Positions 23,052-60,317 of a stretch of 64,000 nucleotides of DNA are shown piece by piece. The stretch covers positions 1 to 64,000 of IMG/VR virus record IMGVR_UViG_3300025137_000028; one strand, written 5' to 3'. The stretch comes from a virus. Every line of letters begins with the position of its first letter. The first letter of the stretch is position 1. A program made the position numbers and the translations under genes. The notes below the pieces were generated by a model that saw only the letters and a program-made list of their open reading frames with translations, was not told where the DNA came from and did no database searches.

Positions 23052-23071
23052 TTGTAATTAATAGGAGAGTT

Positions 23072-44686: not shown

Positions 44687-44715
44687 TTGACAATTAAAGT
44701 GAAAGGTGTTATATT
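44687..44715 (+). promoter_or_regulatory. Consensus sigma70-like promoter for gene 55
   Basis: TTGACA, 17 bases, TATATT: near-consensus. The -10 box ends six bases before the gene 55 ATG, so the transcript is predicted to start at or next to the A of ATG. No Shine-Dalgarno is present. Confidence 0.85.
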
Positions 44716-44721
44716 AATACT

Positions 44722-45261
44722 ATGACTATAAAAAGAATTAAAGAGCATTATGTAGATAACAAATTGTTTTTAGAGGCAATGACTGCCTACAAAAAAGAAG
44801 TAAAAAAAGCATTAAGAACAAAAAAAGATAAACCACCTGTAACCGATTACATTGGTAGTTGTTTTTTAAAGATAGCAAATCATTTATCTTACAGACCTAA
44901 TTTCATCAATTATACATTTAGAGACGATATGGTTAGTGACGGTATAGAAAACTGTTTACAATACCTAGACAATTTTGATCCAGCAAAATCTAAGAATCCA
45001 TTTGCTTATTTTACACAAATTATATTCTATGCTTTTGTAAGAAGAATCCAAAAAGAAAAGAAACAAGTTACTATCAAACATAGACTTATTATGGATAATA
45101 ACTTAGATGATTACGCTTTACAACCACAAGATAGAGAAGGCGAATATACTAATCAGTTTAAAGAGTTTTTACAAAAAAATCTAAAGATGGACGAACAACC
45201 TAAAAAAGAAAAGAAACCAAGAAAGAAAAAAACTGTTAAGTCATCTAAATTCTTTATATAA
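44722..45261 (+). CDS. 55: Late transcription sigma factor gp55
   Basis: 179 residues (T4 185). The conserved region FRDDMVSDGIENCLQYLDNF then DPAKSKNPFAYFTQIIFYAF and VRRIQKEKKQV is the sigma region 2-like part that recognises the TATAAATA box and binds core RNA polymerase. The C-terminal tail is Lys-rich (KKEKKPRKKKTVKSSKFFI), which may include the clamp-binding (gp45) end hydrophobic residues FFI. The many late boxes in this window are its expected targets. Confidence 0.93.
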   Translation: MTIKRIKEHYVDNKLFLEAMTAYKKEVKKALRTKKDKPPVTDYIGSCFLKIANHLSYRPNFINYTFRDDMVSDGIENCLQYLDNFDPAKSKNPFAYFTQIIFYAFVRRIQKEKKQVTIKHRLIMDNNLDDYALQPQDREGEYTNQFKEFLQKNLKMDEQPKKEKKPRKKKTVKSSKFFI

Positions 45262-45263
45262 TT

Positions 45264-46337
45264 ATGAAAATAGCCCTATTGAATGATACACACTTTGGTG
45301 TGAGGAATGATAGTCCTGCCTTTAGAGATTATCAAATTAAATTTTATGATGAAGTATTTTTTCCGTACTTAAAAGAAAACAATATTACAAACTTAATACA
45401 TTTAGGTGATGTAACTGATAGAAGAAAGTTTATTAACTTTCATACTTCTAGTGTGTTTAGAGAAAAGTTTTGGAAAAGATTATGGGAAATGAAGATTGAT
45501 ACCCATATAATAATAGGTAACCACGATACTTATTTTAAAAATACAAACAAAGTAAATTCAGTAGATGAGTTGTGTTCAACATTTGATGGTGTACACGAAC
45601 CATTTATCTACACAGGTCCTAAAGAAGTAGAATTAGGTGGTTGTCGTATGTTATTTTTACCATGGATATGTGATGATAATTATGAAGACTCAATTTATGC
45701 GATAGATAATTCAACAGCAGATATTTGTTTTGGGCATTTAGAAGTAAAAGGTTTTGAGATGCAAAAGGGATTATTTAACGAACATGGTTTAGAACCAACA
45801 CAATTTAAAAGATTTGAAAAAGTTATGTCTGGTCACTTTCATAAAAAATCAGATGATGGTCGTATCTATTATCTTGGCTCACAATATGAAATGACTTGGT
45901 CAGATTATAAAGATCCTAAAGGGTTTCATATTTTTGATACAGAAACAAGAGAACTTACAAGAGTAACTAATCCTCTTAGAATGTTTAAAAAGATTCTCTA
46001 TAATGATACTAAAGAAGATTACTCTACAAAAGACTTATCAGATTTTGAAAACAAGATAGTAAAAATCTTTGTTACTAATAGAACAAACGAAGAAATGTTT
46101 AATAATCTATTAGATAAATTACAAAACAAAGTAAATGTACATGAGGTAAATGTTATAGAAGATGTACAAAGTGATATGACATCTAGTGTTAGAGAAGATA
46201 TATTAGATCAAGGCGAAGATACTATAACATTTTTAAATAATTATGTAGATCAAATACAAACAGATTTAGATAGACAAAAACTAAAAGAGTTTATCAAAGA
46301 AACATATGTAGAGGCAAACGATCATTATGCTGGATAA
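45264..46337 (+). CDS. 47: Recombination nuclease subunit gp47 (Mre11/SbcD-like)
   Basis: 357 residues. Metallophosphoesterase motifs: MKIALLNDTHFG (D8-x-H10), LGDVTDRR (48-54), GNHD (85-88), then CFGHLEVKG and MSGHFHKK. With gp46 it degrades DNA ends to start recombination and host DNA degradation. It starts two bases after gene 55 and is separated from gp46 by an oxygenase gene. Confidence 0.95.
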   Translation: MKIALLNDTHFGVRNDSPAFRDYQIKFYDEVFFPYLKENNITNLIHLGDVTDRRKFINFHTSSVFREKFWKRLWEMKIDTHIIIGNHDTYFKNTNKVNSVDELCSTFDGVHEPFIYTGPKEVELGGCRMLFLPWICDDNYEDSIYAIDNSTADICFGHLEVKGFEMQKGLFNEHGLEPTQFKRFEKVMSGHFHKKSDDGRIYYLGSQYEMTWSDYKDPKGFHIFDTETRELTRVTNPLRMFKKILYNDTKEDYSTKDLSDFENKIVKIFVTNRTNEEMFNNLLDKLQNKVNVHEVNVIEDVQSDMTSSVREDILDQGEDTITFLNNYVDQIQTDLDRQKLKEFIKETYVEANDHYAG

Positions 46338-46971
46338 ATCAATATTAAATTATAAAAACTTGAATTGGGGACCATATGTTCTTTGTACATCATTGCCTGA
46401 TTATATAACAGACAAAATGTTAGAAGAAGGACGTAAGTGTAAAGATACAGCTAATCATAAATTAGCAGGTCATCTAAAGTTTCAGTTTTCATATTCTACA
46501 GAAATTCAACAATGGTTTTATAATGAGATAACACCGGTATTAGAATTGTATATAGAAGAACATTGTAAGTTTCACGGACATGACATTGTTCAACAAAGAA
46601 AACTAGAAGCATTAGATTTATGGGTAAACTTTATGAAAAAAGGTGACTTTAATCCTCCTCATACTCACGCAGGTGATTATTCTTTTGTTTATTACCTAGA
46701 TGTGCCAGATGAGTTAAGAAAAGAACAAGAAGATTACAAAGGCTCAGATGTGTCAGGACCAGGTGGTATAACTATATTGTATGGCGAGTCAACTAGACCT
46801 AAATGGACTACTTGTGCTCACGGTTTAAATCCTAAAAAAGGTGCGTTTATGATGTTCCCTGCTTTACTACAACATACAGTAGCGCCTTTTAAATCTGATA
46901 TTACAAGAGTTAGTGTATCAGGTAATTTAAGAACATTAAACCATGAGATAATAACTAACAATTATTTTTAG
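46327..46971 (+). CDS. 2OG-Fe(II) oxygenase (putative, PF13759 type)
   Basis: 214 residues. NFMKKGDFNPPHTHAGDYSF has His112, His114 and Asp117, then VYYLDVPDELRKE; PALLQHTVAPFKSDITRVSV carries His183 and Arg194, with SGNLRT behind. This is the pattern of the phage oxygenase family that often lies near T4-like replication genes. Inserted between 47 and 46, adjacent genes in T4. Substrate unknown. Confidence 0.82.
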   Translation: MLDKSILNYKNLNWGPYVLCTSLPDYITDKMLEEGRKCKDTANHKLAGHLKFQFSYSTEIQQWFYNEITPVLELYIEEHCKFHGHDIVQQRKLEALDLWVNFMKKGDFNPPHTHAGDYSFVYYLDVPDELRKEQEDYKGSDVSGPGGITILYGESTRPKWTTCAHGLNPKKGAFMMFPALLQHTVAPFKSDITRVSVSGNLRTLNHEIITNNYF

Positions 46972-46972
46972 T

Positions 46973-48688
46973 ATGATAAGATTTAAAAAAATTAAGTGGA
47001 AAAATTTTCTGTCAACAGGTAATACACCAATAGAAGTTGACTTAGATAAATCAAACACAACACTTGTTATAGGTACAAACGGTTCAGGCAAGTCAACTTT
47101 ACTAGACGCCATGACTTTTGTTTTATTTAATAGACCATTTAGAATAATAAAAAAAGAACAAATGGTTAATACGATAAACAATGGTGAAGCATTAGTAGAA
47201 ATAGAATTTTCAATAGGTACTAAACAATATAAAGTTATTAGAGGTATTAAACCTAACATATTTGAAATATATGAAGACGATCAATTAATAAACCAAGACG
47301 CTTCTAGTATTGATTATCAAAAGATATTAGAAAGAAATATAATGAGATTAAGTTATAGATCATTTATTCAAGTAGTAATATTAGGGTCATCATCTTACGA
47401 GCCATTTATGAAAATGAAATCTCGTTATAGAAAAGAAGCAGTTGAAGAGATACTTGACATAAAAGTATTTTCACATATGGACTGGATGTTAAGAGATCAA
47501 CAATCTGTTTTAAATAAAAAGATTATAGAAGTTAAACATAATGCTGATCTAGTAAAATCTAAGTATGAATTAGAAAGTAAACACTTTAATGAAATAAAGA
47601 ATAGAAATACAGATGATAAGACACAAAAAGAACAACAGTTAGATAAATTAAACTTAGATAAAAAAGATTACTTAGAAAAGATACAAAAATTAGATGGTGA
47701 ATATACACAACTAAAAGAACAAACAATTGATAAAGGTCCTCAAACAACAAGATTAACTCAATTAGAAAAACTAGAAACAAAGATAGAACAAAATTTAGAA
47801 ACTCATACAAAGAATTTAGAGTTTTTTGAAGAAAATGATACCTGTCCTACTTGTACACAACCAATTGATGAAACATTTAAATTAGGAAAACAAGAAGAAC
47901 TAAAGAGTAAAGTTGTTACCTTAAATGAAGGTATGAAAAAATTAGTAGAAGAAATATCTACTACTGAAACTAAATTATCAGAAATTAATTCTATATCTGA
48001 AAAAATGTCAGATTTAAATATAGAAATGTCAAAAGTTAATACATCAATAAATGAACTTAAAAAATTTAGTGACAATCTACATAATGAGATATTATTGTTA
48101 GATAACAAAAAAGAGGACAGTGATAATATAGAAAAACAATTAGAAGAATTAAAAGTTAATTTAGAACAATCACAAGTTGATTTAGATAAAATTACCGAAG
48201 AAAAAACATATATTGATACAGTTAGAGAAATACTATCTGAAAAAGGTGCTAAAACAAAAATTATTAAAAAGTATTTACCTATAATGAATACTTTAATAAA
48301 TCAATACTTACAAGATATGAACTTCTTTGTTAACTTTCATTTAGATGAAGAGTTTAACGAGACAATAAAAAGTAGATTTAGAGATACTTTTAATTACAAT
48401 AATTTTAGTGAGGGTGAAAAACTAAGAATAGATTTAGCATTGCTATTTACTTGGCGACAGATTGCTAAAATGAAAAATAGTACAAATACAAACGTTTTAA
48501 TATTAGATGAAATATTTGATAGCTCATTAGATGGTCAAGGTACAGATGACTTCTTTAAAATTATTAAATCACTATCAAAAGAAAATATCTTTATTATATC
48601 ACATAAGGGCGATATACTATTTGATAAATTTACTAATATCATAAAATTTGATAAAATAAATAACTTTACGAGGTTACAGAATGTCTAA
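46973..48688 (+). CDS. 46: Recombination nuclease subunit gp46 (Rad50/SbcC-like)
   Basis: 571 residues. Walker A GTNGSGKS (34-41); ABC signature FSEGEKLRIDLALLF and Walker B LILDEIFD (about 509-516) near the C-terminus; zinc hook CPTC (291-294) in the middle of two long coiled-coil arms. ATP-driven partner of gp47. Overlaps peptide deformylase by eight bases. Confidence 0.95.
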   Translation: MIRFKKIKWKNFLSTGNTPIEVDLDKSNTTLVIGTNGSGKSTLLDAMTFVLFNRPFRIIKKEQMVNTINNGEALVEIEFSIGTKQYKVIRGIKPNIFEIYEDDQLINQDASSIDYQKILERNIMRLSYRSFIQVVILGSSSYEPFMKMKSRYRKEAVEEILDIKVFSHMDWMLRDQQSVLNKKIIEVKHNADLVKSKYELESKHFNEIKNRNTDDKTQKEQQLDKLNLDKKDYLEKIQKLDGEYTQLKEQTIDKGPQTTRLTQLEKLETKIEQNLETHTKNLEFFEENDTCPTCTQPIDETFKLGKQEELKSKVVTLNEGMKKLVEEISTTETKLSEINSISEKMSDLNIEMSKVNTSINELKKFSDNLHNEILLLDNKKEDSDNIEKQLEELKVNLEQSQVDLDKITEEKTYIDTVREILSEKGAKTKIIKKYLPIMNTLINQYLQDMNFFVNFHLDEEFNETIKSRFRDTFNYNNFSEGEKLRIDLALLFTWRQIAKMKNSTNTNVLILDEIFDSSLDGQGTDDFFKIIKSLSKENIFIISHKGDILFDKFTNIIKFDKINNFTRLQNV

Positions 48689-49226
48689 AGATTTACAATT
48701 AATACCACCTAACGATCCAAGAGTTTGTTCAGCAATCGCACCATTTAGTGACGATATGTTAAAAGAACACAATCTAAAAGATAGACAAGAACTATCTGAT
48801 AATATGTTTGAATTAATGTTTAAATATGGTGGTATAGGGTTATCAGCAAATCAAGTAGGTTTACCTTTTAATATGTTTGTTATGGGTGGGCATCCTGAAT
48901 TAGAAAAAGGTTTAAGAATGACTTGTTTTAATCCTATGATTATATCAGCTAGTGAAGAAACAATTGTTATGAAAGAAGGTTGTTTAACTTTTCCTTTTAT
49001 GTTCTTATCTATTACAAGACCTAGAAAAGTTGTAGTAAAATATGAAGATGAAAAAGGTGATCTAAAAGAAGGTCATTTAGACGGCATGATTAGTCGTATT
49101 TTTCAACATGAACACGATCACATGTTAGGTAGATTATTTACAGAGAGAGCTAGTAAACTTAAACTAAAGAGGGCAAATATATATGCTAAAAAACAAATCA
49201 AAAAAATATCGAAAAGAAAAAAATAA
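48681..49226 (+). CDS. def: Peptide deformylase
   Basis: 181 residues. Three signature motifs: GIGLSANQVG (51-60), EGCLTFP (99-105; Cys101 is the metal ligand), and QHEHDHMLG (142-150; His143, Glu144, His147). It removes the formyl group from the N-terminal Met of new proteins. Phage-encoded deformylases, also known from marine T4-like phages, may support rapid translation. The metal triad is complete, so the enzyme should be active. Confidence 0.95.
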   Translation: MSKDLQLIPPNDPRVCSAIAPFSDDMLKEHNLKDRQELSDNMFELMFKYGGIGLSANQVGLPFNMFVMGGHPELEKGLRMTCFNPMIISASEETIVMKEGCLTFPFMFLSITRPRKVVVKYEDEKGDLKEGHLDGMISRIFQHEHDHMLGRLFTERASKLKLKRANIYAKKQIKKISKRKK

Positions 49227-49347
49227 AATTTTTGAACATAATCCTAGTACAGGAGTTATTAGATGGCGTTATGTTGGTGAATCACCAGACAAGTTTGGCT
49301 GGCCGAACTATGGAAGAATATTAAAGAATGTCAAAAAACGAAATTAA
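49183..49347 (+). CDS. Small protein (54 aa), possible relic of an HNH-type N-terminus
   Basis: After a basic start (KNKSKKYRKEKNK) comes IFEHNPSTGVIRWRYVGESP then DKFGWPNYGRILKN. The first motif resembles the N-terminus of phage HNH endonucleases ([FY]-x-Y-x-P-x-TG-x-[IL]-x-WR), but no HNH core follows, so it is a small independent peptide or a relic. It overlaps deformylase by 44 bases and the next gene by 20 bases in other frames. Confidence 0.45.
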   Translation: MLKNKSKKYRKEKNKIFEHNPSTGVIRWRYVGESPDKFGWPNYGRILKNVKKRN

Positions 49348-49948
49348 AAAATTATTTCCTACACCCTTATACATAGGTAACATAGGTGTAAATGAAGACT
49401 GGCTAACTTATATTAATTCATTAGATTTTGAGTTAACTTATTTAAAAAACGGTTTACAAACACAAGACAGACATATACTTTTACATAAAGAATTATCATC
49501 ATTAAAGAAAAAAATAGATGATGAGTTTGAGATATATGCTAGAGATAAACTTAGAATAAATAAAAAACATAATTTTGAAATGATAAACTCATGGTGTAAT
49601 ATACATAATCAAGGACATGTAGCACAACCACATCATCATCAAAATAGTATGTTTAGTGGTGTGTATTATTTACAATCAACAGAGAATACAGGTGCTATTA
49701 AGTTTAATCAAAGTCCTTTTAAGAGTTGGAATAATATTATGATTAAATTAGAAATAGATGAAGGAAATGAATTTAATAATGATGAATGTATAATTAATCC
49801 TATGCCTGGTACAGTAGTGTTATTTCCGTCTTGCGTTTCACATGAAACAGATGTAAACAATACAACACATCAAAGATATTCACTTGCCTTTAATTACTTT
49901 CCTAGAGGTCAGTTTGGTGATAAAGAATCATACTTGGAGATAAAATAA
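49328..49948 (+). CDS. 2OG-Fe(II) oxygenase (PF13759 type)
   Basis: 206 residues. First ligands in QPHHHQNSMFSGVYYL (His102-104), second half with VLFPSCVSHETDVN (His172) and RYSLAFNYFPRGQFG (Arg183). IKKLFPTPLYIGNIG at the start is a typical opening (phage 'F-P-T-P-[LV]-[WY]' motif). Second Fe-ligand Asp is replaced by an Asn/Ser-containing turn, unlike classical H-x-D; check needed. First of three adjacent oxygenases. Confidence 0.78.
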   Translation: MSKNEIKKLFPTPLYIGNIGVNEDWLTYINSLDFELTYLKNGLQTQDRHILLHKELSSLKKKIDDEFEIYARDKLRINKKHNFEMINSWCNIHNQGHVAQPHHHQNSMFSGVYYLQSTENTGAIKFNQSPFKSWNNIMIKLEIDEGNEFNNDECIINPMPGTVVLFPSCVSHETDVNNTTHQRYSLAFNYFPRGQFGDKESYLEIK

Positions 49949-50547
49949 TGAATGTAGAAATTACAGATGACTTTATAGGAATATTTGATAATTTTTTTAC
50001 AGACGAATATATTGAAAATTATATTACTTACTTTGAAAAAATGAATAAAAACAATTTAACTTTCAAAAGAGAGTTTAGTCCTAGCCATGAAGTTGATGAC
50101 ACAGCATTTGATGAGCTTTCAGAACCATTTTATATAAAAGAATTACCTGTACATTACATGGCAAAAAATTTTATTGATATATTTTTTAATCAAAAACATG
50201 GACCATATCAAAGATATATTGAAAAGTTTAGTATTTTAAAAACACAAGGTAGACACTCAATATTTGATATAAAGATACAAAAGACAGAGCCAGGTCAAGG
50301 GTATCATATTTGGCATGTAGAAAATAGCCAATTAACTAGTAGAAATAGAGTTACTGCTTTTACATTGTACTTAAATGATGTAGAAGATGGTGGCGAGACA
50401 GAGTTTTTATATCAAAAAAGAAGAATTAAACCTAAGAAAAATAGATTAGTTATTTGGCCTGCTCATTTTACTCATGTACATAGAGGAAATCCACCCTTAT
50501 CAAATGACAAATATATTTTAACTGGTTGGACTGAATACTCTTATTAA
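49948..50547 (+). CDS. 2OG-Fe(II) oxygenase-like protein, H-x-E type
   Basis: 199 residues. YHIWHVENSQLTSRNRVTAF holds His123-x-Glu125, an H-x-E variant of H-x-D; PAHFTHVHRGNPP carries the distal His176/178. FTLYLNDVEDGGETEFLYQK resembles prolyl-hydroxylase strands ('LYLND.EEGGET.F'), which is a strong family hint. Ends ILTGWTEYSY. It overlaps neighbours by one base at each end, so the three oxygenase genes form one operon. Confidence 0.78.
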   Translation: MNVEITDDFIGIFDNFFTDEYIENYITYFEKMNKNNLTFKREFSPSHEVDDTAFDELSEPFYIKELPVHYMAKNFIDIFFNQKHGPYQRYIEKFSILKTQGRHSIFDIKIQKTEPGQGYHIWHVENSQLTSRNRVTAFTLYLNDVEDGGETEFLYQKRRIKPKKNRLVIWPAHFTHVHRGNPPLSNDKYILTGWTEYSY

Positions 50548-51062
50548 TGAAAATACAAGTTGACGATTATAAATTTTACAGACATACAAACTTTATGGAT
50601 AAATCCTATAAAGAAAAGTATATTTCTGATATTGATAAAGTCATATCAGACGGACATGTAGCTAGTAGTAATGTGCCACCTTTACAAACTAAAACAGACT
50701 TATATGATCATGTAAAATTTTTAAATCGTTGGATTGAACTACAAATAAAAATAAAAACAATTATAGAAGAAAATATAGGTAAAGTACAACTCACTGAAAG
50801 TTGGGCAAATATTAGTAGAGAAGATAATAGATTTAGTTTTCATACACACAAAAGAGATATAACTGCTGTATATTATTTAAAAAACAATTATACTAATTAC
50901 GGCACACAAATAGATGATAAAGTAATTATACCTGGTTTAGAAAACTCAGTGTTAATATTTGATGGCAAGATAAATCATAGTATTATTAATATGCCTTTTG
51001 AGTTAGCAGTACACCCACACAACAATAGATATTCAGTAGTATTTGATTATGACACCATATAA
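50547..51062 (+). CDS. 2OG-Fe(II) oxygenase-like protein
   Basis: 171 residues. ISREDNRFSFHTHKRDITAV gives His99, His101 and Asp104, then YYLKNNY; FDGKINHSIIN carries His144 and RYSVVFDY Arg161. The layout parallels PF13759-like oxygenases. It is the third in a row, and its last 14 bases overlap the PLP-type gene. No substrate evident. Confidence 0.7.
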   Translation: MKIQVDDYKFYRHTNFMDKSYKEKYISDIDKVISDGHVASSNVPPLQTKTDLYDHVKFLNRWIELQIKIKTIIEENIGKVQLTESWANISREDNRFSFHTHKRDITAVYYLKNNYTNYGTQIDDKVIIPGLENSVLIFDGKINHSIINMPFELAVHPHNNRYSVVFDYDTI

Positions 51063-51801
51063 TTTTCCTAAATTAGTTATTGAACAACATGATGGCTTTC
51101 ATATAGTAAGAGACGACTTACTAGAAGGTGGTTCTAAAAGAAGATTTGTAGATAGGTATATGAGAGAAGAGATAGAAGAAGGTGCCGAAGAGTTTGTATA
51201 TGGCGGTTGTCCAGCAAACGGTTATGCTCAATTATCTCTTACATTACAAGCGAATCACTATGGTAAAAAAGCTGTTTTTTTCATGGCTAAAAGATCATTA
51301 GATAATTTACACCCTTATCAAAAACAAGCATTAGACTATGGTGCTGACATTAGGTGGGTACCTAATGGTATGTTACAAGTCACAAAAGCAAGAGCCAGAG
51401 AGTATTTTTATGAGGATCCTATAAGACGTAGAATATTACCATTAGGGCTAGAAGAAAAAAGAGTATTTGAAGATATAAGGGACCTTGCCAAAAACATAGA
51501 AATAGTGTATAGTATAAAGATTAGTGAAATTTGGTCAGTAGGATCAAGTGGCACTTTAACAAGAGGATTACAAATGGCGTTTCCAGACAAAGAAGTACAT
51601 TGTGTTTCAGTAGGTCACAAAATGGCTCAACATGAAATAGGAAGAGCAAATTTGTATTTAAGTAAATATAAGTTTACACAAGAAGTTAAAGAAGAAGATA
51701 AACCACCTTTTCCATCTGTGCCGACTTATGACGCAAAAGCATGGTCAATTATGAAAGAACATGCTAAACCAAACGCACTATTTTGGAATGTAGGAAAATG
51801 A
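51049..51801 (+). CDS. PLP-dependent enzyme, ACC deaminase / D-cysteine desulfhydrase-like
   Basis: About 251 residues. VIEQHDGFHIVRDDLLEGGS then KRRF places a Lys (residue 30) after RDDLLEGGS, the pattern (K/R-DD-x-x-x-GG-x-K) that holds the cofactor Lys in fold-type II PLP enzymes of the ACC-deaminase group. SVGSSGTLTRGLQMAF (residues about 163-178) is a phosphate-binding loop. It is shorter than typical members (about 330), so the enzyme may be reduced. The ATG at 51049 is preferred to an upstream TTG. Reaction unknown: deaminase, desulfhydrase or a base-modifying role. Confidence 0.65.
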   Translation: MTPYNFPKLVIEQHDGFHIVRDDLLEGGSKRRFVDRYMREEIEEGAEEFVYGGCPANGYAQLSLTLQANHYGKKAVFFMAKRSLDNLHPYQKQALDYGADIRWVPNGMLQVTKARAREYFYEDPIRRRILPLGLEEKRVFEDIRDLAKNIEIVYSIKISEIWSVGSSGTLTRGLQMAFPDKEVHCVSVGHKMAQHEIGRANLYLSKYKFTQEVKEEDKPPFPSVPTYDAKAWSIMKEHAKPNALFWNVGK

Positions 51802-52129: not shown

Positions 52130-53205
52130 GTGATATATTACAAAACACACACGATACAATAAAAGACAAAGGCTTTCCTTATTATCCTAAAGATAAGAAA
52201 TGGCGAGACGACAAGTATAATCTTTTAATGGCATTTAAAAGAGATACTATGATAGATAGAAAAACTAAAGTCATAGGTCAATCTGCTCATGGTTTAAATC
52301 TCGCATGGTCTTATATGGAACATGCTTGGGGTATTAAGTGTGGTAAAATGAAGACACCTATGGAAGTTTGGGATGATGAAGAACATCTTAAAAAAGGTAT
52401 AAACAAAATTTTAACAGGCACATTTTTTACACAAAAGAAACCACACGAAATAACAGACTCAGATATGAGATCAATGTTAAGAAGATACTCAGGCACACAA
52501 ATGGTTTCTAATTTTAGACCTACGGCTGCCGCTGCCTTATATGATGTATTTGTAGAAAAAGATAGTCCTTTAGAAGGCACAACGGCAGGTTTAGTATGGG
52601 ATCCTAGTATGGGTTATGGTGGTAGATTATTAGGGGCAATTGCTGCTGGTGTTAATTACATAGGCACAGATCCTTGTATACCGACATACGATGGTTTACA
52701 AAACATATTAATGGATTATGGTCATACACACAAACAATATTCATTACTAAGACAAGGTAGTGAAACGTATATACCTGAAGAAAATAGTTTAGACTTTGTA
52801 TTTACAAGTCCACCTTACTTTGGTTGGGAAGCATATGGTGATGAGCCAGAACAATCTAGTATTAAGTTTAATACAAGTGATATGTGGAAAGAACACTTTT
52901 TAAAGAAGACAATTGCTAATGCTTATAAAGGTTTAAAACCAGGTAAACATTTAGCACTTAATGTTGCTAATACAAAACAGTATAAAACGTTTGAAGAGGA
53001 TACTGTACAATTAGCCATTGATTGTGGTTTTGAACATACTGATACTTGGTGGTTGTCATTATCTACACAACAAGGTGGATCAGAAACATCAACATTAGAT
53101 GGTGAAATAACTGAAAAGAAACAAACACAAAGATATATGGGCAAGTTTGAAAGACCGAATCAATCAGGTAGAAAGTTTGAACCTACGTTTATATTTACAA
53201 AATGA
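52126..53205 (+). CDS. DNA methyltransferase (N4-cytosine or N6-adenine type)
   Basis: 359 residues. AdoMet motif I: VWDPSMGYGGRLLGA (from Asp159); catalytic motif IV: FTSPPYFGWE (226-235, S-P-P-Y). The order motif I then IV and the S-P-P-Y signature fit N4/N6 methylases of the beta/gamma kind. No restriction partner is next to it, so it is an orphan methyltransferase protecting phage DNA or regulating it. The target recognition part would be residues about 240-300. Confidence 0.8.
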   Translation: MSDILQNTHDTIKDKGFPYYPKDKKWRDDKYNLLMAFKRDTMIDRKTKVIGQSAHGLNLAWSYMEHAWGIKCGKMKTPMEVWDDEEHLKKGINKILTGTFFTQKKPHEITDSDMRSMLRRYSGTQMVSNFRPTAAAALYDVFVEKDSPLEGTTAGLVWDPSMGYGGRLLGAIAAGVNYIGTDPCIPTYDGLQNILMDYGHTHKQYSLLRQGSETYIPEENSLDFVFTSPPYFGWEAYGDEPEQSSIKFNTSDMWKEHFLKKTIANAYKGLKPGKHLALNVANTKQYKTFEEDTVQLAIDCGFEHTDTWWLSLSTQQGGSETSTLDGEITEKKQTQRYMGKFERPNQSGRKFEPTFIFTK

Positions 53206-53219
53206 GAACAAAACAAGAA

Positions 53220-53227
53220 CATAAATA
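53220..53227 (+). promoter_or_regulatory. Variant late box CATAAATA
   Basis: One mismatch from TATAAATA, about 70 bases upstream of the VWA gene. It may add late transcription to the sigma70-like promoter just downstream. Confidence 0.4.
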
Positions 53228-53263
53228 GTCAAAAACCTAGTAAATATAGGGATATATAAACGC

Positions 53264-53292
53264 TTGACTTTTGAAACGTTTTCCTATATTAT
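53264..53292 (+). promoter_or_regulatory. Sigma70-like promoter for the VWA gene
   Basis: TTGACT, 17 bases, TATTAT (or overlapping TATAAT at 20 bases). The ATG follows at 53299, so the RNA would begin at or near the start codon; no Shine-Dalgarno seen. Confidence 0.7.
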
Positions 53293-53298
53293 AATAGT

Positions 53299-55566
53299 AT
53301 GACTACACAAATAAACATTAATACTAAATCTCAATTAGCAAAACTTATTGCTACAGAAAATCTTACAGTACAACATAACAACGTCAAAACTGCTAGTTTT
53401 GATACATTAAATAGAATACTTACTTTACCTATTTTTAAAATACAAACAGGTGACATATACGATATGTTAATAGCACATGAATGTTCACATGCTTTATTTA
53501 CACCTACTAAAAGTTGGCAAACAATTGCTAGTGATGATGAGTTAAGAGCTTATGTAAATGTTATTGAAGATTGTCGTATAGATAAAAAAATTCAAAAGAA
53601 ATATCCAGGTGTTGTTAAAAACTATTTACAAGGGTTTGATGACATGATGTCTAAAAACTTCTTTGGTTTAGATGGCAAAGATGTTAATACAGACTTAATG
53701 TTAATTGATAAAATTAATATGTACTACAAATCTTCAAAAAGATTAGACATTAAATTTAATGCTTCAGATAAACTATGGATTAAAAAAGTTGATGAAGTAA
53801 AATCTTTTAAAGATGTTGTTCAATTAGCCAAAAAGATGTTAGATTGGCAGAAAAAACAATTACAGAAATTAAAAAAACTACCTGATTTTGATACACATCC
53901 TTTAGTTGAAAACTATAATTTAGATAAAAACAAAGACTCAGATAATAATGTTAACACTAAAGATAGTGATTCTGCTGATAACAAATCAGACAATTCTAAT
54001 GAATCAAATGAAGATGGTACAGATGAAAAAGACGGTTCTTCTTTAAATGATACAAATGAAGGTGATTCAAAATCAGATGAAAAAGATAGTGAACAAATTG
54101 CTAATGATCTAGGTGCTGGGTCAGGTGCTACTAAGGGTTTTAGTAAATTGAAAGCAGTAACTAATATTAGTTTAGATAGTAATAAAGAAAGATTATATGA
54201 TAATAGTAAATCATTTAATTATTGTTCTTTGCCAGATGTTAAATTAAAAAATGTTATTATTGATTACAAGAAATTTATTAAAGATATGAGATCACATATT
54301 GCTTTAAAAAGAAAAGAAGGTTTAAGTGGTGATATAACTCAATATATTAATTGGTTAAAAAATGATTTTACTAAGTTTAAAACTGATAACAAAAAAACTG
54401 TAATGTATCTTGTTAAAGAATTTGAAATGAAAAAAGCTGCCACTGCTTATAAAAAATCTTCTACTGATAAAACAGGTGTTATTGATCCTCTTAAATTAAA
54501 AAATTACAAATTTAGTGATGATATATTTAAAAGATTAACTGTATTGCCTGATTCTAAAAATCATGGTATGATAATGTTATTAGATTGGTCAGGTTCTATG
54601 AGTGATATATTGATGAAAACAGTAGAACAATTAATTAACTTAGTTTCATTTTGTCAAAAGATTAATATACCATATGAAGTTTACTTTTTTAATAGTACAA
54701 GAGACTCAACAAGAGGACTTGATAAAACATGTTTTAATTATAAACATGGCGATATGGTATTTGACAATTTTGTGTTAGTTAATATCGCTAGCCATAGAAT
54801 GAATAAAAGAGATTTAGATGAGTCTTTAATGTATCTATACAGTATGGCAGATTATTTTTCTGATAGATATAGTTCTTGGAGAGACTTAAATAATGATTAT
54901 CAAAAAGGTCACAATTACGGTATGCCAGATAACTATTGGTTAGGTAATACACCTTTAAATGAGGCGCTAGTTGCTTGTGATAAAGTAATTAAATTATTCA
55001 AACAAAAATATAATATTGAAAAACTAAGTTTTATTACTCTTACTGACGGTGCTTCAAATTATACTAGAGGTAAAGTTGAGAATACAGATACCGGATTAGA
55101 AAGAGGTGATATGCCTTATGACGGTGTGCTTGTTATTAAAGACGGTAAAAAATCTTATGTTATAGATAAAGATGATGAACACTATTATTCAGGTGAAAAA
55201 GTTACTTCTTCTATTTTACATGTAATTAAGAAAAAACACAATGTTAAAACTATCGGTTTTTATATGATTAAAAGAACAAGAGGTTATGAGACAAGTAGAT
55301 TTTTCAGTACAATGGGTAGAGATAGTGATAAGGCTTTAAAAAGAAAACAAGCTTTTGCTAAAGATAAAGTATGTACAGTTGATAAAAAAGGTTATGATGA
55401 ATACTTTTTAGTTAATGTTAAAAACATGGCAGTACAAAATACTGACTTGTCATCATTAAAAAGTGATATGAAGGCTGGTAGAATCAAACAAATATTCAGT
55501 AAAAGTATGAAAGGACGAATCACTTCCAGAGTGCTTTTAAACAAATTTATACAGAATGTCGCTTAA
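53299..55566 (+). CDS. VWA-domain protein with N-terminal zincin-like motif (CobT-like)
   Basis: 755 residues. N-terminal HECSH (60-64, H-E-x-x-H) followed by VNVIEDCRID (Glu90/Asp91) fits the metal-binding pattern of zincin-like metallopeptidases; a Ser/Asp/Asn-rich acidic stretch lies at about 205-270, then a VWA domain with MIDAS DWSGSMS (429-435), LVNIASHRM, PLNEALVACDKVIKLF and LTDGASN. CobT and its relatives have this architecture and act with a MoxR/CobS AAA+ ATPase. Here the AAA+ gene follows directly. Whether the pair inserts metal, remodels or proteolyses something is unknown. Confidence 0.82.
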   Translation: MTTQININTKSQLAKLIATENLTVQHNNVKTASFDTLNRILTLPIFKIQTGDIYDMLIAHECSHALFTPTKSWQTIASDDELRAYVNVIEDCRIDKKIQKKYPGVVKNYLQGFDDMMSKNFFGLDGKDVNTDLMLIDKINMYYKSSKRLDIKFNASDKLWIKKVDEVKSFKDVVQLAKKMLDWQKKQLQKLKKLPDFDTHPLVENYNLDKNKDSDNNVNTKDSDSADNKSDNSNESNEDGTDEKDGSSLNDTNEGDSKSDEKDSEQIANDLGAGSGATKGFSKLKAVTNISLDSNKERLYDNSKSFNYCSLPDVKLKNVIIDYKKFIKDMRSHIALKRKEGLSGDITQYINWLKNDFTKFKTDNKKTVMYLVKEFEMKKAATAYKKSSTDKTGVIDPLKLKNYKFSDDIFKRLTVLPDSKNHGMIMLLDWSGSMSDILMKTVEQLINLVSFCQKINIPYEVYFFNSTRDSTRGLDKTCFNYKHGDMVFDNFVLVNIASHRMNKRDLDESLMYLYSMADYFSDRYSSWRDLNNDYQKGHNYGMPDNYWLGNTPLNEALVACDKVIKLFKQKYNIEKLSFITLTDGASNYTRGKVENTDTGLERGDMPYDGVLVIKDGKKSYVIDKDDEHYYSGEKVTSSILHVIKKKHNVKTIGFYMIKRTRGYETSRFFSTMGRDSDKALKRKQAFAKDKVCTVDKKGYDEYFLVNVKNMAVQNTDLSSLKSDMKAGRIKQIFSKSMKGRITSRVLLNKFIQNVA

Positions 55567-55597
55567 AATGTCAATAAAACTAGGGTTATTTAATGGC

Positions 55598-55631
55598 TTG
55601 ACAATCGTACAAAAAGGTGATACCATATATT
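55598..55631 (+). promoter_or_regulatory. Possible promoter for the AAA+ gene
   Basis: TTGACA at 55598 with TATATT at 55626; the spacer is 22 bases, longer than ideal. A TATATTAATA-type -10 is shared with the promoters before gene 55 and the DUF3310 gene. Confidence 0.45.
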
Positions 55632-55657
55632 AATAAATGAAGAAAGGACAATACACT

Positions 55658-56881
55658 ATGTTAAATGTAAAACAACAAGACTTTGTTAATCATGCTTATA
55701 AGCTGTTTAATAAAGACGTTTTAACTATTGATGAGTTAAAACAAGCCAATAAAAAGTTTGGCTGTAAGTATCCACCACAATGGTTGACTAAAAATAAAGA
55801 CTATAAAGTTGATACTAAAAAATATAAATTGCCACTAGATGGTGATTTAACTGTATCTACTCAACCAGAGACGGAAAAAGTATTAGATACTAAAGTACCT
55901 GAAGTAGAAAAGACTCAGACCGAGGCTGCCTATGTAGTTTCATCTTTAGTTGGCAATATTGTGCCGAAAAAAGATCCTGTCTTTGTTTCTTTCGGTAACT
56001 ATACAGATGTAAAATCTATTATCAAGTCAGGCAAATTTTATCCTGTGTTTATTACAGGCTTGTCTGGTAACGGTAAAACAATGGGTGTTACTCAGGCTTG
56101 TGCCGAAAACAAAAAAGAATTAATCAGAGTAAACATTACAATTGAAACAGATGAAGATGATTTACTAGGTGGTTATAGACTTAAAGATGGTCATACTGTC
56201 TGGCAGAATGGTCCTGTTATTGAGGCAATGGAGAGAGGTGCTGTCTTGTTATTAGATGAGATTGACCTTGCTTCTAATAAGATAATGTGTTTACAACCGA
56301 TATTAGAAGGTTCAGGTGTGTTTGTTAAAAAGATTAACAAGTATATAAAACCTAAAGACGGCTTTAACGTGTTTGCTACTGCCAATACTAAAGGGCAAGG
56401 TAGTGAAGATGGTAAGTTTATCGGTACTAATATTCTTAATGAGGCATTTTTAGAAAGATTTCCTGTTACTTTTGAACAGAAATATCCTTCAGTTTCAATT
56501 GAGAAAAAAATACTTAACAACACTTTAAAAGTTGCTGGTAAATCAGATGTTAAGTTTGTTGACAAGTTAACTACTTGGGCAGACGTTATCAGAAAAACTT
56601 ATTTTGACGGTGGTGTTGATGAGATTATCTCAACTAGAAGACTGGTTCATATAGTTCAAGCTTTTGCTATCTTTGGCAATAAGATGAAAGCTGTTGAAGT
56701 ATGTACTAATAGATTTGATGATGATACAAAAAATTCGTTTGTTGAGTTATATACTAAAGTTGACGCTGGTGCCAATGCTGAAAGCATTATGGAAGACCAG
56801 AAGAAAGCTGATTTAGCTGAACAATTGGATGACAATGATAGTGAGTCTGATAGTGAGGAAGATGATTCTGATACTATTTAA
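55658..56881 (+). CDS. AAA+ ATPase, MoxR/CobS-like
   Basis: 407 residues from the ATG preceded by AAAGGACAATACACT; an in-frame ATG 21 bases upstream lacks a site. Walker A GLSGNGKT (134-141), Walker B LLLDEIDL (D200/E201), sensor and arginine-finger region in FATANTKGQGS and NEAFLERFPVTFE. N-terminal about 50 residues form a small helical domain (QDFVNHAYKLFNKDVLTIDE); the C-terminus is an acidic tail. It is the partner of the upstream VWA protein, as CobS of CobT. Phages related to T4 from the sea often carry CobS-like genes; cobalt chelation as such is not shown. Confidence 0.85.
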   Translation: MLNVKQQDFVNHAYKLFNKDVLTIDELKQANKKFGCKYPPQWLTKNKDYKVDTKKYKLPLDGDLTVSTQPETEKVLDTKVPEVEKTQTEAAYVVSSLVGNIVPKKDPVFVSFGNYTDVKSIIKSGKFYPVFITGLSGNGKTMGVTQACAENKKELIRVNITIETDEDDLLGGYRLKDGHTVWQNGPVIEAMERGAVLLLDEIDLASNKIMCLQPILEGSGVFVKKINKYIKPKDGFNVFATANTKGQGSEDGKFIGTNILNEAFLERFPVTFEQKYPSVSIEKKILNNTLKVAGKSDVKFVDKLTTWADVIRKTYFDGGVDEIISTRRLVHIVQAFAIFGNKMKAVEVCTNRFDDDTKNSFVELYTKVDAGANAESIMEDQKKADLAEQLDDNDSESDSEEDDSDTI

Positions 56882-56903
56882 ATCTATCCGTAGTGTAGTC
56901 CTT

Positions 56904-56927
56904 GGTGGTGGGGTTGTGCCCACCACC
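56904..56927 (+). other. Strong hairpin between AAA+ and bS21 genes
   Basis: GGTGGTGGG, six-base loop, CCCACCACC: a perfect nine-base-pair stem, very GC-rich in this AT-rich sequence. No T-tract follows, so it is not a classical terminator. It may block RNA decay from the 3' end or act as an attenuator before bS21. Confidence 0.65.
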
Positions 56928-56966
56928 GTTCATACGCTATATAACTTGAAGGGAGGTATATAAATT

Positions 56967-57164
56967 ATGAGAGTTGATGTTAGAAACAATAATGTAGAAC
57001 AAGCATTAAGAGTTTTAAAGAAAAAATTAATGAAAGATGGTCGTCTTAAAGAATTAAAAGAAAGAGCATATTATATTAAACCCTCTGAGTTGAAAAGAGA
57101 AGCAAAAAAACGTGGTATTATTAACTATAAAAAGAACAAAAAAAAACTAGATCAACAACGTTAG
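56967..57164 (+). CDS. rpsU: Ribosomal protein bS21
   Basis: 65 residues. MRVDVRNNNVEQALRVLKKK then LMKDGRLKELKERAYYIKPS and ELKREAKKRGI agree with bS21 (V..NE....ALRRFKR, ..REFYEKPT..RKR...A). bS21 sits at the 30S platform near the anti-Shine-Dalgarno and affects mRNA start selection. GGGAGGTATATAAATT is its ribosome-binding region. Phage-encoded S21 is known from SAR11 phages; it may tune host ribosomes towards phage messages. Confidence 0.9.
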   Translation: MRVDVRNNNVEQALRVLKKKLMKDGRLKELKERAYYIKPSELKREAKKRGIINYKKNKKKLDQQR

Positions 57165-57167
57165 AAG

Positions 57168-57370
57168 TTTTTTACGCTGTTTTTGTTGTATATATATTAT
57201 TGAGGTGGCAATTCATAAGTCCGCTTCAGCGTAAAAAAGGGAGCCAAGAAACCCGATTTATAAAGTCAAACTTGGCGTCGCTAGGTGATATTTGATACTT
57301 TGACACCTTGACAAAATAAAGTATCGTACATATATAAATAACTATGATATGCTCATAAGAGGTATCAAAT
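57168..57370 (+). ncRNA. Possible structured non-coding RNA / leader region
   Basis: The gap between bS21 and Hsp20 genes has no ORF but several perfect inverted repeats: TTTTTTACGCTG (57168-57179) with CAGCGTAAAAAA (57227-57238); GCCAAG (57243) with CTTGGC (57271); GATACTTT (57294) with AAAGTATC (57318); and ATTTGATAC (57290) with GTATCAAAT (57362). The last two pairings compete for the same bases, as in switching leaders. Not a recognised tRNA, tmRNA or known riboswitch by eye. Confidence 0.45.
57333..57340 (+). promoter_or_regulatory. Late promoter box TATAAATA before Hsp20 gene
   Basis: Exact octamer, about 60 bases before the chaperone ATG, inside the repeat-rich gap. It makes Hsp20 a late gene. 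Confidence 0.7.
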
Positions 57371-57398
57371 TTAAACTTGCTTAACAAAGGAGATTAAC

Positions 57399-57851
57399 AT
57401 GACAGATCACAAAGCAATTCACTCAATTTTTACTGGACTAAAACCGTTTACTGTAGGGTTTGACGATATGTTTGACCATTTAGATATGGTACACAATCAC
57501 ATTCCACATTTAACGGCTAATAACTATCCGCCATACAATATTGTAAAGACAGGCTCTTTAACATATGACATAGAAGTGGCATTGGCTGGTTATAATAAGA
57601 AAGATGTACAAGTAACTTATGAGAATAATATGATTAAAATTAACTCTGTAAAAAGTAAAGACGAAAAAGAAGTTGAAGACAATGACGGAATATTACATAA
57701 AGGCATTGCTAAAAGAAACTTCTATAAATCTTTTACTATAGCAGAGGATATTGAGGTAAAAGGTGCTGAATTAAAAGATGGACTTTTAAGAGTATCTTTA
57801 GAAAAAATTGTTCCAGACCATAAGAAGGCTAGAACTATCAATATCAAATAA
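57399..57851 (+). CDS. Small heat-shock protein Hsp20 (IbpA type)
   Basis: 150 residues. A short N-terminal arm (GFDDMFDHLDMVHNHIPHLT), then an alpha-crystallin domain: YPPYNIVKTGSLTYDIEVAL, AGYNKKDVQVTYENNMIKIN, HKGIAKRNFYKSFTIAEDIE, VKGAELKDGLLRVSLEKIVP. The C-terminus ends in TINIK, an I-x-I motif used for oligomerisation. Marine T4-like phages commonly carry Hsp20; it likely helps fold or protect virion proteins late in infection. AAAGGAGAT precedes the start. Confidence 0.93.
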   Translation: MTDHKAIHSIFTGLKPFTVGFDDMFDHLDMVHNHIPHLTANNYPPYNIVKTGSLTYDIEVALAGYNKKDVQVTYENNMIKINSVKSKDEKEVEDNDGILHKGIAKRNFYKSFTIAEDIEVKGAELKDGLLRVSLEKIVPDHKKARTINIK

Positions 57852-57860
57852 TAAATCTTA

Positions 57861-57893
57861 AAGGGCGGAGAGCATTGACTTTCCGCCTTTTTT
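57861..57893 (+). terminator. Rho-independent terminator after Hsp20
   Basis: AAGGGCGGA, about twelve-base loop, TCCGCC(T)TT followed by T's. The loop contains TTGACT, the -35 of the next promoter, so terminator and promoter are interlocked. Confidence 0.85.
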
Positions 57894-57903
57894 AATATAC
57901 TAT
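57875..57903 (+). promoter_or_regulatory. Sigma70-like promoter for the Dam-type gene
   Basis: TTGACT lies in the loop of the terminator; TACTAT follows after 17 bases, with TATACT as an alternative at 15. The ATG is six bases beyond the -10 box, giving a leaderless mRNA. No Shine-Dalgarno. Confidence 0.65.
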
Positions 57904-57909
57904 ATCATT

Positions 57910-58701
57910 ATGTTTAGTTATCTCGGTGGTAAAAAATTTCAAGCCAAATGGATTGGCTCACACTTTCCTACATCTAAAAAATATGTTGAACCTTTTGGTG
58001 GTGCTTTTTGGGTATATTTTCAAAATGGCATAGAGTTTGATAAGAACGTTTATAACGACTACAATAGATTTTTAACTAATATATTTTACTGTGCTAGAAA
58101 TAAAACTAATCAATTTGTAAAAGAATTAAAAAAATATGAAACACAAAAAAGAGATTTATTTGAACAGATAAAAGATGAATTAGTACCCTTAAACTACAAC
58201 TTTGAATTAGGTGATGTAGAAAAGGCAGCGAAATATCTTTATATAGAATTAAATACTTTTAGTGGTTTAACAATAGAAAAAGCAAAATTTGTTGATTTAA
58301 AAGGTAAGTATAAATCAAAGTACACACAATTTATAGAAAAAGTTATACATCCTAGATGGCAGTATAAACTACAAACAATTACTAATATAGAAAATCAATC
58401 ATTTCAAAACTGTATATTAGAACATGATACACCAGATACTCTTTTTTATTGTGATCCACCTTACTTTAAAAAAGAATCATACTATACAAAAGACTTTCCT
58501 CAAACCGAACACAAAAAACTTGCTAAGTTATTAAAGTCAATCAAAGGTAAATTTGTGTTGTCTTATTATGAATTTGATGACTTAGAAAAATGGTTTCCTA
58601 AAGATCAATATACTTGGCAGGAACGAGAGTTTAATAAACAAAACAGTAGTAAAAAAGTAAATACTGACAAAGGTAAAGAAATTATTATAATGAATTTCTA
58701 G
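57910..58701 (+). CDS. dam: DNA adenine methylase (Dam/D12 class)
   Basis: 263 residues. Motif I YVEPFGGAFWVYF (from residue 25; E27-P-F-G-G), catalytic DPPY (182-185) in LFYCDPPYFKKESY, plus the N-terminal SYLGGKKFQAKWI (family 'Y.GGK..L...I'). It transfers a methyl to adenine N6; the target sequence is not predictable here. T4 also has a dam gene, which makes a function in self-marking or protection likely. No restriction gene nearby. Confidence 0.92.
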   Translation: MFSYLGGKKFQAKWIGSHFPTSKKYVEPFGGAFWVYFQNGIEFDKNVYNDYNRFLTNIFYCARNKTNQFVKELKKYETQKRDLFEQIKDELVPLNYNFELGDVEKAAKYLYIELNTFSGLTIEKAKFVDLKGKYKSKYTQFIEKVIHPRWQYKLQTITNIENQSFQNCILEHDTPDTLFYCDPPYFKKESYYTKDFPQTEHKKLAKLLKSIKGKFVLSYYEFDDLEKWFPKDQYTWQEREFNKQNSSKKVNTDKGKEIIIMNF

Positions 58702-58704
58702 TTA

Positions 58705-58712
58705 TATAAATA
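58705..58712 (+). promoter_or_regulatory. Late promoter box TATAAATA
   Basis: Exact octamer five bases before the ATG of the next gene; T4-type late initiation would fall at the start codon. No Shine-Dalgarno in between, so the mRNA should be leaderless. Confidence 0.75.
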
Positions 58713-58717
58713 TTGCT

Positions 58718-60007
58718 ATGATTAGTTTCAAGCAGTATTTAAAAGACGAAAAATTTGATAGACTTTCTGAGTTAGAAGAAGGATTATTCAGTGGTTTTAT
58801 CTCTTTTATAAGAAGTGCTTTTAACAAAGTTGTTAATGCTTTTAAGTCAGCATTTAGAGCCATTGCTTCTAAACTAGGTTTTGGGCAAACTATATCTATG
58901 AAAATAAGTACAGGATTAACTGAAGCAAATGAGACAGGACAAGATAGTAAATCCAGACTAGGTTACTATTCAGAATATGTTTGTGGTGTTGAATTAGCAA
59001 AACTTATTGAAAGTAGAGACTTAAAATTACCTAGTTCTTCAACAAGTAATTCACTTAATAAAGTTAGACAAAATTTTGTAAATACTAAACTAAAAACTTT
59101 ATCTAACTTTAAATCATTAAGTTCAGAAATTAAAAGAATGGAAGACGCTGGTAGGGCGATGGCAGATAAGATATTCTCTGACATGTTAACTGAAACAGCA
59201 GATTTAAAAGTAACACAATTTGATATTACTTTAACAGGTGATAGTTTAAAAGGTACTGGTAAAGCAGACATAGTATTAAGAGCTAGAAAAAAATCTAAGA
59301 ACGAGATAGTGGCAGAAATCGCTGCTTCTTTAAAAGCATACAGAGGTGCTTCAATCAATCTAGCAAACTCAACATTAATTAGTTTCTTTGCTTCACTTAC
59401 AGGTGATAAACAGTTTACTTCAAAAGCATTAGAGAAGTCTCAAACTATTATATTTGACAGTATGGTAAAAGCTGCTGTATCAGATGGCATGAGTAAAGCA
59501 GAAGCGATAGAGTTTCTAGCAAAGAAAACTTTAAATGCTACAGAGAAAAAGAAATTTAAAAAATATAAAGACTTTGGTCGTAAAGTTTCTAAAGAATCAC
59601 AAATCAATACTGCTAAAATAATAGTAGATGAATTTAATAAGATATACAAATCAAGTAAAGCAAAAATTAATACTAACTTAATTAAACTGATAGGTATGGA
59701 CGGCGAAGATGATTTTTATGCTGCTATAGGCGAGGGTAAAAAGATGAGAGTTATATCATCTAAACAAAGTCCTGACATGAAAAAGTTTGTAAAAGACATT
59801 AGAAATAAAAATTTAAATGTAACAATGGTACCAAAACCTGGTTCTGCTGGCAGAGCTAGTGTATCAGTTACATTATCAATAGGTACAGAAATACTTACAA
59901 CATCATCATTAACTATGACCGATACAGGCATAGGTAGTGCTGGTATGACTAAATCAAAAGGTGCGATAAAAACTAACTTTTGGTTTAACTTTAATGACAT
60001 TGCCTAA
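58718..60007 (+). CDS. Unrecognised late protein (429 aa)
   Basis: MISFKQYLKDEKFDRLSELE at the start is a tag-like helix used by several marine T4-like virion proteins, followed by an amphipathic segment (FSGFISFIRSAFNKVVNAFK). The middle has DIVLRARKKSKNEIVAEIAA then SLKAYRGAS (Asp184, Glu200, Lys206), reminiscent of D...E...K nuclease spacing but with atypical gaps. The rest (MRVISSKQSP, SVSVTLSIGTEI) is beta-rich. Late transcription suggests a packaged or assembly protein; no family is recognised. Confidence 0.6.
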   Translation: MISFKQYLKDEKFDRLSELEEGLFSGFISFIRSAFNKVVNAFKSAFRAIASKLGFGQTISMKISTGLTEANETGQDSKSRLGYYSEYVCGVELAKLIESRDLKLPSSSTSNSLNKVRQNFVNTKLKTLSNFKSLSSEIKRMEDAGRAMADKIFSDMLTETADLKVTQFDITLTGDSLKGTGKADIVLRARKKSKNEIVAEIAASLKAYRGASINLANSTLISFFASLTGDKQFTSKALEKSQTIIFDSMVKAAVSDGMSKAEAIEFLAKKTLNATEKKKFKKYKDFGRKVSKESQINTAKIIVDEFNKIYKSSKAKINTNLIKLIGMDGEDDFYAAIGEGKKMRVISSKQSPDMKKFVKDIRNKNLNVTMVPKPGSAGRASVSVTLSIGTEILTTSSLTMTDTGIGSAGMTKSKGAIKTNFWFNFNDIA

Positions 60008-60013
60008 CCAGCA

Positions 60014-60042
60014 TTGACTTTTATTATGACCTGTGATATATT
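60014..60042 (+). promoter_or_regulatory. Sigma70-like promoter for DUF3310/clamp operon
   Basis: TTGACT, 17 bases, TATATT, with TGA before the -10 (extended). The ATG follows eight bases later, with no Shine-Dalgarno; predicted leaderless. It probably also serves the clamp gene behind it. Confidence 0.85.
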
Positions 60043-60050
60043 AATAGATT

Positions 60051-60317
60051 ATGAAATACAATGAAGATAAAATCTTAAAAGAGATAGACGAATATATTAA
60101 ATCTACTTATGGTCAGCATTACTCAAAAGGTAAAGATGGCTTTCAAGTTTTAGATTTACTTAAAACTCTCAACGTAGGACAAGATTTTTGTCATGCTAAC
60201 GCAATTAAATATTTGTGTAGGTATGGTAAGAAGAACGGCCATAATAGAGCTGACTTATTAAAAGCAGTTCATTATGTAATATTATTATTAAATTATGATA
60301 AGGAGAAGGTGAAATGA
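60051..60317 (+). CDS. DUF3310-type protein (88 aa)
   Basis: GFQVLDLLKTLNVGQDFCHA then NAIKYLCRYGKKNGHNRADL and LKAVHYVILLLNYDKEK. The N-A-I-K-Y-L-x-R-Y-G-K-K...D-L-x-K-A signature is typical for DUF3310, a small protein family in phages, sometimes linked to nucleotide metabolism. The stop overlaps the clamp gene (ATGA), whose start follows GGAGAAGGTGAA. Confidence 0.8.
   Translation: MKYNEDKILKEIDEYIKSTYGQHYSKGKDGFQVLDLLKTLNVGQDFCHANAIKYLCRYGKKNGHNRADLLKAVHYVILLLNYDKEKVK

Follow-up and report, generated by a model that had tools for sequence, protein, structure and literature searches.

Predicted leaderless genes behind sigma70-type and late promoters form a conserved class in pelagimyophage-like viruses

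Bacterial leaderless mRNAs are known from lambda cI and from many genes in Mycobacterium, Deinococcus and Caulobacter, and those of phages are known mostly as single genes. Here, we describe a set of genes with a comparable layout in a 64,000-nucleotide stretch of viral DNA (the window), which is part of the 73,930-base IMG/VR virus record IMGVR_UViG_3300025137_000028 (GC content 32%). With the bacterial cases these genes share a -10 box about 6 nucleotides (nt) before AUG, the lack of a Shine-Dalgarno (SD) site and the requirement for AUG as the start codon. They differ in forming a conserved gene set in lytic T4-like phages, in being preceded by promoters of both the host sigma70 and the phage late sigma type, and in having a large SD-led class alongside. 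In the marine cyanobacterium Prochlorococcus MED4, 6-8% of primary transcription starts lie 10 nt or less from the start codon (PMC5607370). The likeness to MED4 extends to a marine, streamlined and AT-rich setting with SD-independent initiation; however, the MED4 data concern host genes with measured 5' ends, whereas here phage genes are predicted from conserved spacing.

T4 and the cyanomyophages Syn9, P-SSM4, S-ShM2 and Syn30 share with the window sigma70-type promoters, the late box TATAAATA and orthologous gp55, CobT and gp25. Their spacing is different. When d denotes the number of bases separating the -10 or late box from ATG, the late boxes of T4 lie at a d of at least 13 (13 in the closest case), mostly with an SD leader, and the strong promoters of Syn9 are mostly found at d 22-26. 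The near arrangement seen at gp55 in the window is absent from T4 and the four cyanophages, in which the gp55 promoter, where visible, is far. Closer still are the phages of the pelagimyophage surveys (PMC7029224; Melnitz, PMC9004378), which belong to the same group as the virus studied here. The first reports an unsuccessful attempt to identify middle and late promoters in these phages (PMC7029224), and Melnitz was scanned for early promoters resembling sigma70 sites and for late sites of the form TATAAAT (PMC9004378). Start-codon spacing is not described in the available sections of either paper; here, TATAAATA was located and its spacing was measured.

Judged by its gene content, the virus of the record is a T4-like phage of the pelagimyophage kind (Kyanoviridae): its closest isolates are Pelagibacter myophages, and gp55, CobS/CobT and bS21 are all encoded. 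The nearest gp55 proteins are those of the Pelagibacter phages Mosig EXVC030M (72% identical) and HTVC008M (63%), followed by those of the Methylophilales phage Melnitz and of cyanomyophages. The window was compared with related contigs (80 each for CobT, gp55, DUF3310 and gp25; 23 for the gene at 58718; 55 for Dam) and with the phage genomes of Mosig, HTVC008M and Melnitz, most of Syn9, and parts of T4, P-SSM4, S-ShM2 and Syn30. A strict sigma70 site was taken as a -35 box, 17 nt and a -10 box, the four sites of this type in the window having the form TTGAC(A/T)-17-TAnnnT, and an SD site as GGAG, GAGG or AGGA located 4-11 nt 5' of the start. Melnitz was excluded from the counts because several near-ATG promoter matches in that genome have doubtful starts.

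The initial annotation had proposed sigma70-like -10 boxes ending 6-8 nt before ATG, without SD, at the genes starting at 44722, 53299, 57910 and 60051, and late boxes at gene 25 (2507) and at the gene at 58718, with 8 and 5 nt to ATG, respectively. All four sigma70-type sites were found as placed, and the two late boxes were confirmed, both of them TATAAATA and both without SD (Table 1). No GGAG, GAGG or AGGA occurs 4-11 nt before any of the six starts, and the start codon is ATG in all six genes. The exact TATAAATA at 2507 and 58718 is accompanied by a gp55 gene in the same phage, and its geometry matches that reported for T4, where the late box sits about one helical turn upstream of +1 (PMC2988020); use of the box by gp55 is predicted.

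Table 1. Near promoters, the genes behind them and other features of the window (d, bases from the end of the box to ATG; aa, amino acids; bp, base pairs)
Feature	Coordinates	Strand	Details
Gene 55 promoter	44687..44715	+	-35 TTGACA 44687-44692, 17 nt, -10 TATATT 44710-44715; ATG after d=6
Gene 55, late sigma factor	44722..45261	+	179 aa; predicted leaderless; PHROG 234, E 1.4e-62
CobT/VWA gene promoter	53264..53292	+	TTGACT-17-TATTAT, d=6
CobT-like/VWA protein	53299..55566	+	755 aa; predicted leaderless; PHROG 459 'peptidase'
dam promoter	57875..57903	+	TTGACT-17-TACTAT, d=6
D12-class adenine methyltransferase (Dam)	57910..58701	+	263 aa; predicted leaderless; PF02086, E 2.7e-25
DUF3310 gene promoter	60014..60042	+	TTGACT-17-TATATT, d=8
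DUF3310 protein	60051..60317	+	88 aa; predicted to have no leader or one of 1-2 nt; PF11753, E 1.7e-11
T4-type late box TATAAATA	2491..2498	+	d=8 to gene 25 ATG
Gene 25, baseplate wedge	2507..2935	+	142 aa; predicted to have no leader or one of ~3 nt; PHROG 261, E 2.3e-46
Late box TATAAATA	58705..58712	+	d=5 to ATG 58718
Late gene	58718..60007	+	429 aa; predicted leaderless; late box at d=5
Contrasting late box TATAAATA	23044..23071	+	20 nt before ATG 23072; AGGAG within the leader
Look-alike CobS promoter	55598..55658	+	TTGACA-17-TACCAT, first ATG 55637 (d=10); not counted
Phage bS21 gene	56967..57164	+	65 aa; SD-led (AGGGAGG, strong); PF01165, E 2e-14
Terminator-like hairpin	57860..57891	+	13 bp stem, loop cattga, then T-run; -19 kcal/mol, z -6.2

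In AT-rich DNA a -10-like hexamer may frequently precede ATG by chance, and lax promoter scans indeed show no excess: in sequence of 32% GC, such a scan gave 93 matches against 94.6 in shuffles and was replaced by strict sites. The 73.9-kb contig, however, has 13 strict sites where shuffles have 3.1 +/- 2.0, a 4-fold excess, and those followed by ATG at d 5-10 number 5 against 0.20 (at most 2 in 30 shuffles), a 25-fold excess. Across the contig, Mosig and HTVC008M, 19 of 470 genes have a near promoter, compared to 3.4 expected from the rate at internal ATGs (47/6502). The arrangement is also conserved across hundreds of related marine phage contigs. The observed near-promoter arrangement far exceeds chance, which these comparative data refute and which we regard as having a practically negligible probability.

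The distances themselves are informative. In pelagimyophage-like loci, 284 distinct upstream regions contain a strong sigma70 promoter, and among them d has a sharp peak at 6 (94/284), is thinly populated at 13-23 and shows a broad second group at 24-40. In the 152 distinct upstream regions with late boxes, TATAAATA peaks at d=5 (38 regions) and then at d=8 (20), the rest lying mostly at 16 or more, with only three cases at d 10-15. In sigma70 promoters, six bases normally separate the -10 box from +1, and the exact distance from the late box to +1 is 5 nt. Thus, the two peaks differ as the promoter geometries predict, and in both +1 would coincide with the A of ATG, an agreement that would not be expected from chance or from the general context of start codons. 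In line with the initial annotation, in which all six transcripts would begin at or within a few bases of ATG, the conserved spacing peaks and the lack of SD support the interpretation that near promoters of both the sigma70 and the late class very probably make leaderless mRNAs.

The occurrence of SD sites follows the same division. With sigma70 promoters, an SD is present in 11/134 regions at d<=8 compared to 77/93 at d>=17 (Fisher 4e-32), and the difference persists with one vote per family (3/20 near vs 23/34 far, p=2e-4); with late boxes, the counts are 0/70 at d 5-9 and 14/24 at d 16-40. The split between near genes without SD and leadered genes with GGAG-type sites, which looked systematic in the initial annotation, accords with these counts. 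It is also visible within a single gene. In gp55, the promoter is kept at d<=8 in 46 distinct upstream regions, none of which has an SD, and TTGACA-17-TATATT-6-ATG recurs despite changes in the spacer and in the first codons; in a minority of relatives, the promoter lies ~14 nt further upstream, and these have an SD (7/7 at d>=13). In HTVC008M, the gp55 promoter is at d=28 and an SD is present, and in Mosig it is at d=9. The SD is present exactly where the gp55 promoter is far, which indicates that leader and SD are gained and lost together.

These observations bear on the alternative that the useful mRNA comes from upstream promoters or read-through, with the proximal RNA poorly translated and the genes merely non-SD. 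Many genes are in fact non-SD, an SD 4-mer being present in 36% of the genes without a visible promoter, and the short intergenic gaps permit read-through. On the other hand, read-through would not conserve exact spacing gene by gene, a terminator-like hairpin precedes dam in most relatives, and in gp55 the SD appears exactly once the promoter moves away. We consider this explanation improbable.

Another finding is that the near or far class, as read from the upstream regions, is a property of the individual gene, conserved across pelagimyophage-like viruses. Near promoters occur in 60/70 gp55 and 7/7 DruA-like upstream regions; among relatives with a strong promoter, d is 12 or less in 23/23 for CobT and in 47/48 for DUF3310 (d=6 in 35), and Dam relatives have d 5-8 in 8/8. 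In the far families, by comparison, a near promoter is found in 0/17 Hsp20, 0/11 sliding clamp and 0/5 clamp loader regions. The late class behaves similarly: for gp25, each of 27 distinct upstream regions has the late box at d 5-9 and lacks an SD; for the gene at 58718, the spacing of the window is shared by 8/8 distinct near relatives; and a leaderless-type start behind a late box recurs at gene 2 of three phages (Mosig, HTVC008M and Melnitz). The comparison of promoter-to-ATG spacing in related genomes, which the initial annotation had suggested, thus revealed a spacing conserved per gene with peaks that fit +1 at the A of ATG. Class membership is probably fixed by compaction of the intergenic DNA. 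In addition, codons 2-11 of the near class have a lower GC fraction (0.23 vs 0.29) and fold more weakly. A conserved A at -3 was considered as a further mark of the near class and rejected, as it is present in 82% of SD-led genes too.

The start codons on which these distances depend are secure for gp55, DUF3310, Dam and gp25. A downstream SD-led ATG, which the initial annotation had named as a possible refutation, was found in 0/60 gp55, 0/46 DUF3310, 0/8 Dam and 0/7 DruA-like cases. The conserved N-termini begin at or just after the ATG (MKYNEDK in DUF3310, from residue 1; MFSYLG; EHYV..NK in gp55), and most gp55 relatives have no alternative start upstream.

Several points nevertheless weigh against a strictly leaderless interpretation. 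The refuting pattern does hold for CobS, where a look-alike promoter precedes the first ATG and AAGGA (55644-55648) is followed after 9 nt by another in-frame ATG, at 55658; an SD-led second ATG is present in 3/3 near-promoter copies, so CobS (55637) was dropped as a fifth strict member, and its true start is probably the downstream ATG with the SD. For CobT, 6/23 relatives have a downstream SD-led ATG, and the window copy has none. The family counts are biased by the genes chosen as queries, a bias of which the whole-genome count (19/470) is free. Moreover, 14 gp55 upstream regions have d=9; many of these end in GAGGATATT and six pass the SD test, and they may represent a transitional form. 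Finally, d 8-12 possibly allows a leader of 2-6 nt. This last point leads to the rival reading that the mRNAs carry very short leaders (2-6 nt) and are translated without SD rather than being strictly leaderless. DUF3310 and gp25, both at d=8, may have a leader of 1-3 nt, and some copies of CobT, gp55 and primase lie at d 9-12, while the main peaks fall exactly at d=6 for sigma70 and d=5 for late promoters, placing +1 on the A of ATG. We give very short leaders a real but minor chance as the general explanation.

Two side observations concern these starts. In gp55 loci with a far promoter, GAGGATATT stands before the ATG and would act as an SD (L140, L143, L157); it is also found with a promoter at d=9 (L148, L160, Mosig gp55), where its GAGG would stay untranscribed, and the loci bearing it are possible intermediates between leadered and leaderless forms. 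In Melnitz, the near-ATG promoters at 31067, 37782 and 15375 (piece coordinates) are each followed by a first ATG and then by an in-frame likely SD and a second ATG; by eye, the true starts are likely the later ATGs, and those annotated at the first ATG probably lie too far upstream. Other Melnitz near-ATG promoter matches open very short frames.

Based on the results presented above, the leaderless reading may be put as a mechanism. Host RNA polymerase with sigma70 would start gp55, CobT, dam and DUF3310 at the A of ATG or within ~3 nt of it, polymerase with the phage late sigma gp55 would do the same at gene 25 and the gene at 58718, and the ribosome would initiate on the 5'-terminal AUG with no SD pairing. 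A second gene class in the same phages would be expressed from leaders of ~15-30 nt with GGAG-type sites. The two initiation classes might further constitute a control layer, in which leaderless late-switch and DNA-metabolism genes (gp55, dam and CobT; gp33, primase and uvsY in some phages) would be exempt from SD- or leader-based control, that is, from RegA-type repression, bS21 and anti-SD competition, while the clamp and most structural genes are SD-led; we offer this idea only tentatively and hold it to be rather doubtful.

The initial annotation had pointed to a phage bS21, which affects start selection on the 30S, and by this account the phage protein would retune ribosomes toward leaderless mRNAs. 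The window, Mosig, HTVC008M and Melnitz all encode bS21 and Syn9 lacks it, and the pelagimyophage survey singles out S21 as the chief translation-related difference from cyanomyophages (PMC7029224). However, these are few lineages, confounded by descent, and Melnitz has bS21 yet is mostly SD-led. The bS21 gene of the window is itself SD-led, and the published role of the protein is a contact with the SD:anti-SD helix tied to late-stage structural synthesis, not to leaderless mRNA (PMC9723584). The proposed link is therefore unsupported, and retuning by bS21 is very unlikely.

With regard to the host as the origin of the pattern, a 293-kb SAR11 contig shows no clear peak at d 5-9, and its SD use is low. 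The SAR11 16S anti-SD pattern was unmatched in 21 genomes, perhaps through missing sequence. In 31 SAR11 genomes (one genus), consensus sigma70 promoters (TTGACW, 16-18 nt, TATAAT) number 21 compared to ~133 in the reversed control, about six-fold rarer. Since SAR11 is poor in consensus promoters and the phages are enriched in close matches to them, promoters of the phages are expected to be exceptionally strong in hosts of this kind.

Leaderless mRNA as such is known. In the papers searched, we found no account of leaderless genes in pelagimyophages, nor of a conserved leaderless class in T4-like phages that combines host-sigma with gp55 promoters, a weak negative as the literature coverage is incomplete. 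The class predicted here is conserved and gene-specific, includes the master switch gp55, uses two unrelated promoter types and occurs in a virus group that ranks among the most abundant in the ocean. The SD-led orthologues provide natural controls and would allow a direct test of non-SD initiation in a phage and its streamlined host. In addition, T4-type late boxes have been located in phages where an earlier survey failed to find late promoters, and the annotation of gene starts and promoters is corrected for the group.

The dam unit is particularly compact, with hairpin terminator, promoter and start codon within about 50 bp. The -35 box of the dam promoter lies in the loop and 3' arm of the hairpin, and the spacer includes the T-run. 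Across the window copy and those of 14 relatives, the hairpin stems measure 12-16 bp and have several different sequences with the pairing kept (about -19 to -27 kcal/mol); two of the hairpins are without a clear T-run. From its sequence, the dam hairpin should terminate the preceding transcript. A similar terminator-promoter-start layout is shared by Mosig gene 2 (L005:14670), but with a late promoter: a strong hairpin with a T-run is directly followed by TATAAATA, and the ATG lies 5 nt on. Also in Mosig, the DruA-like gene Mosig_00022 (14385-15683; DUF4338, Druantia) has a leaderless-type promoter, which is found in pelagimyophage relatives as well. Further predicted leaderless starts in the isolates are those at 95079 and of gp33 (111468) in Mosig and that of gene 25 in HTVC008M.

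The 429-aa product of the gene at 58718 has no match in Pfam, PHROG or PADLOC, and its AlphaFold model (predicted local distance difference test score, pLDDT, 56) is too poor for a fold search. At the CobT promoter, an imperfect inverted repeat (53243-53292; ATATAGG..AAACG / CGTTT.CCTATAT) flanks the -35 box; as RNA it is weak (z -1.6), and it is perhaps an operator.

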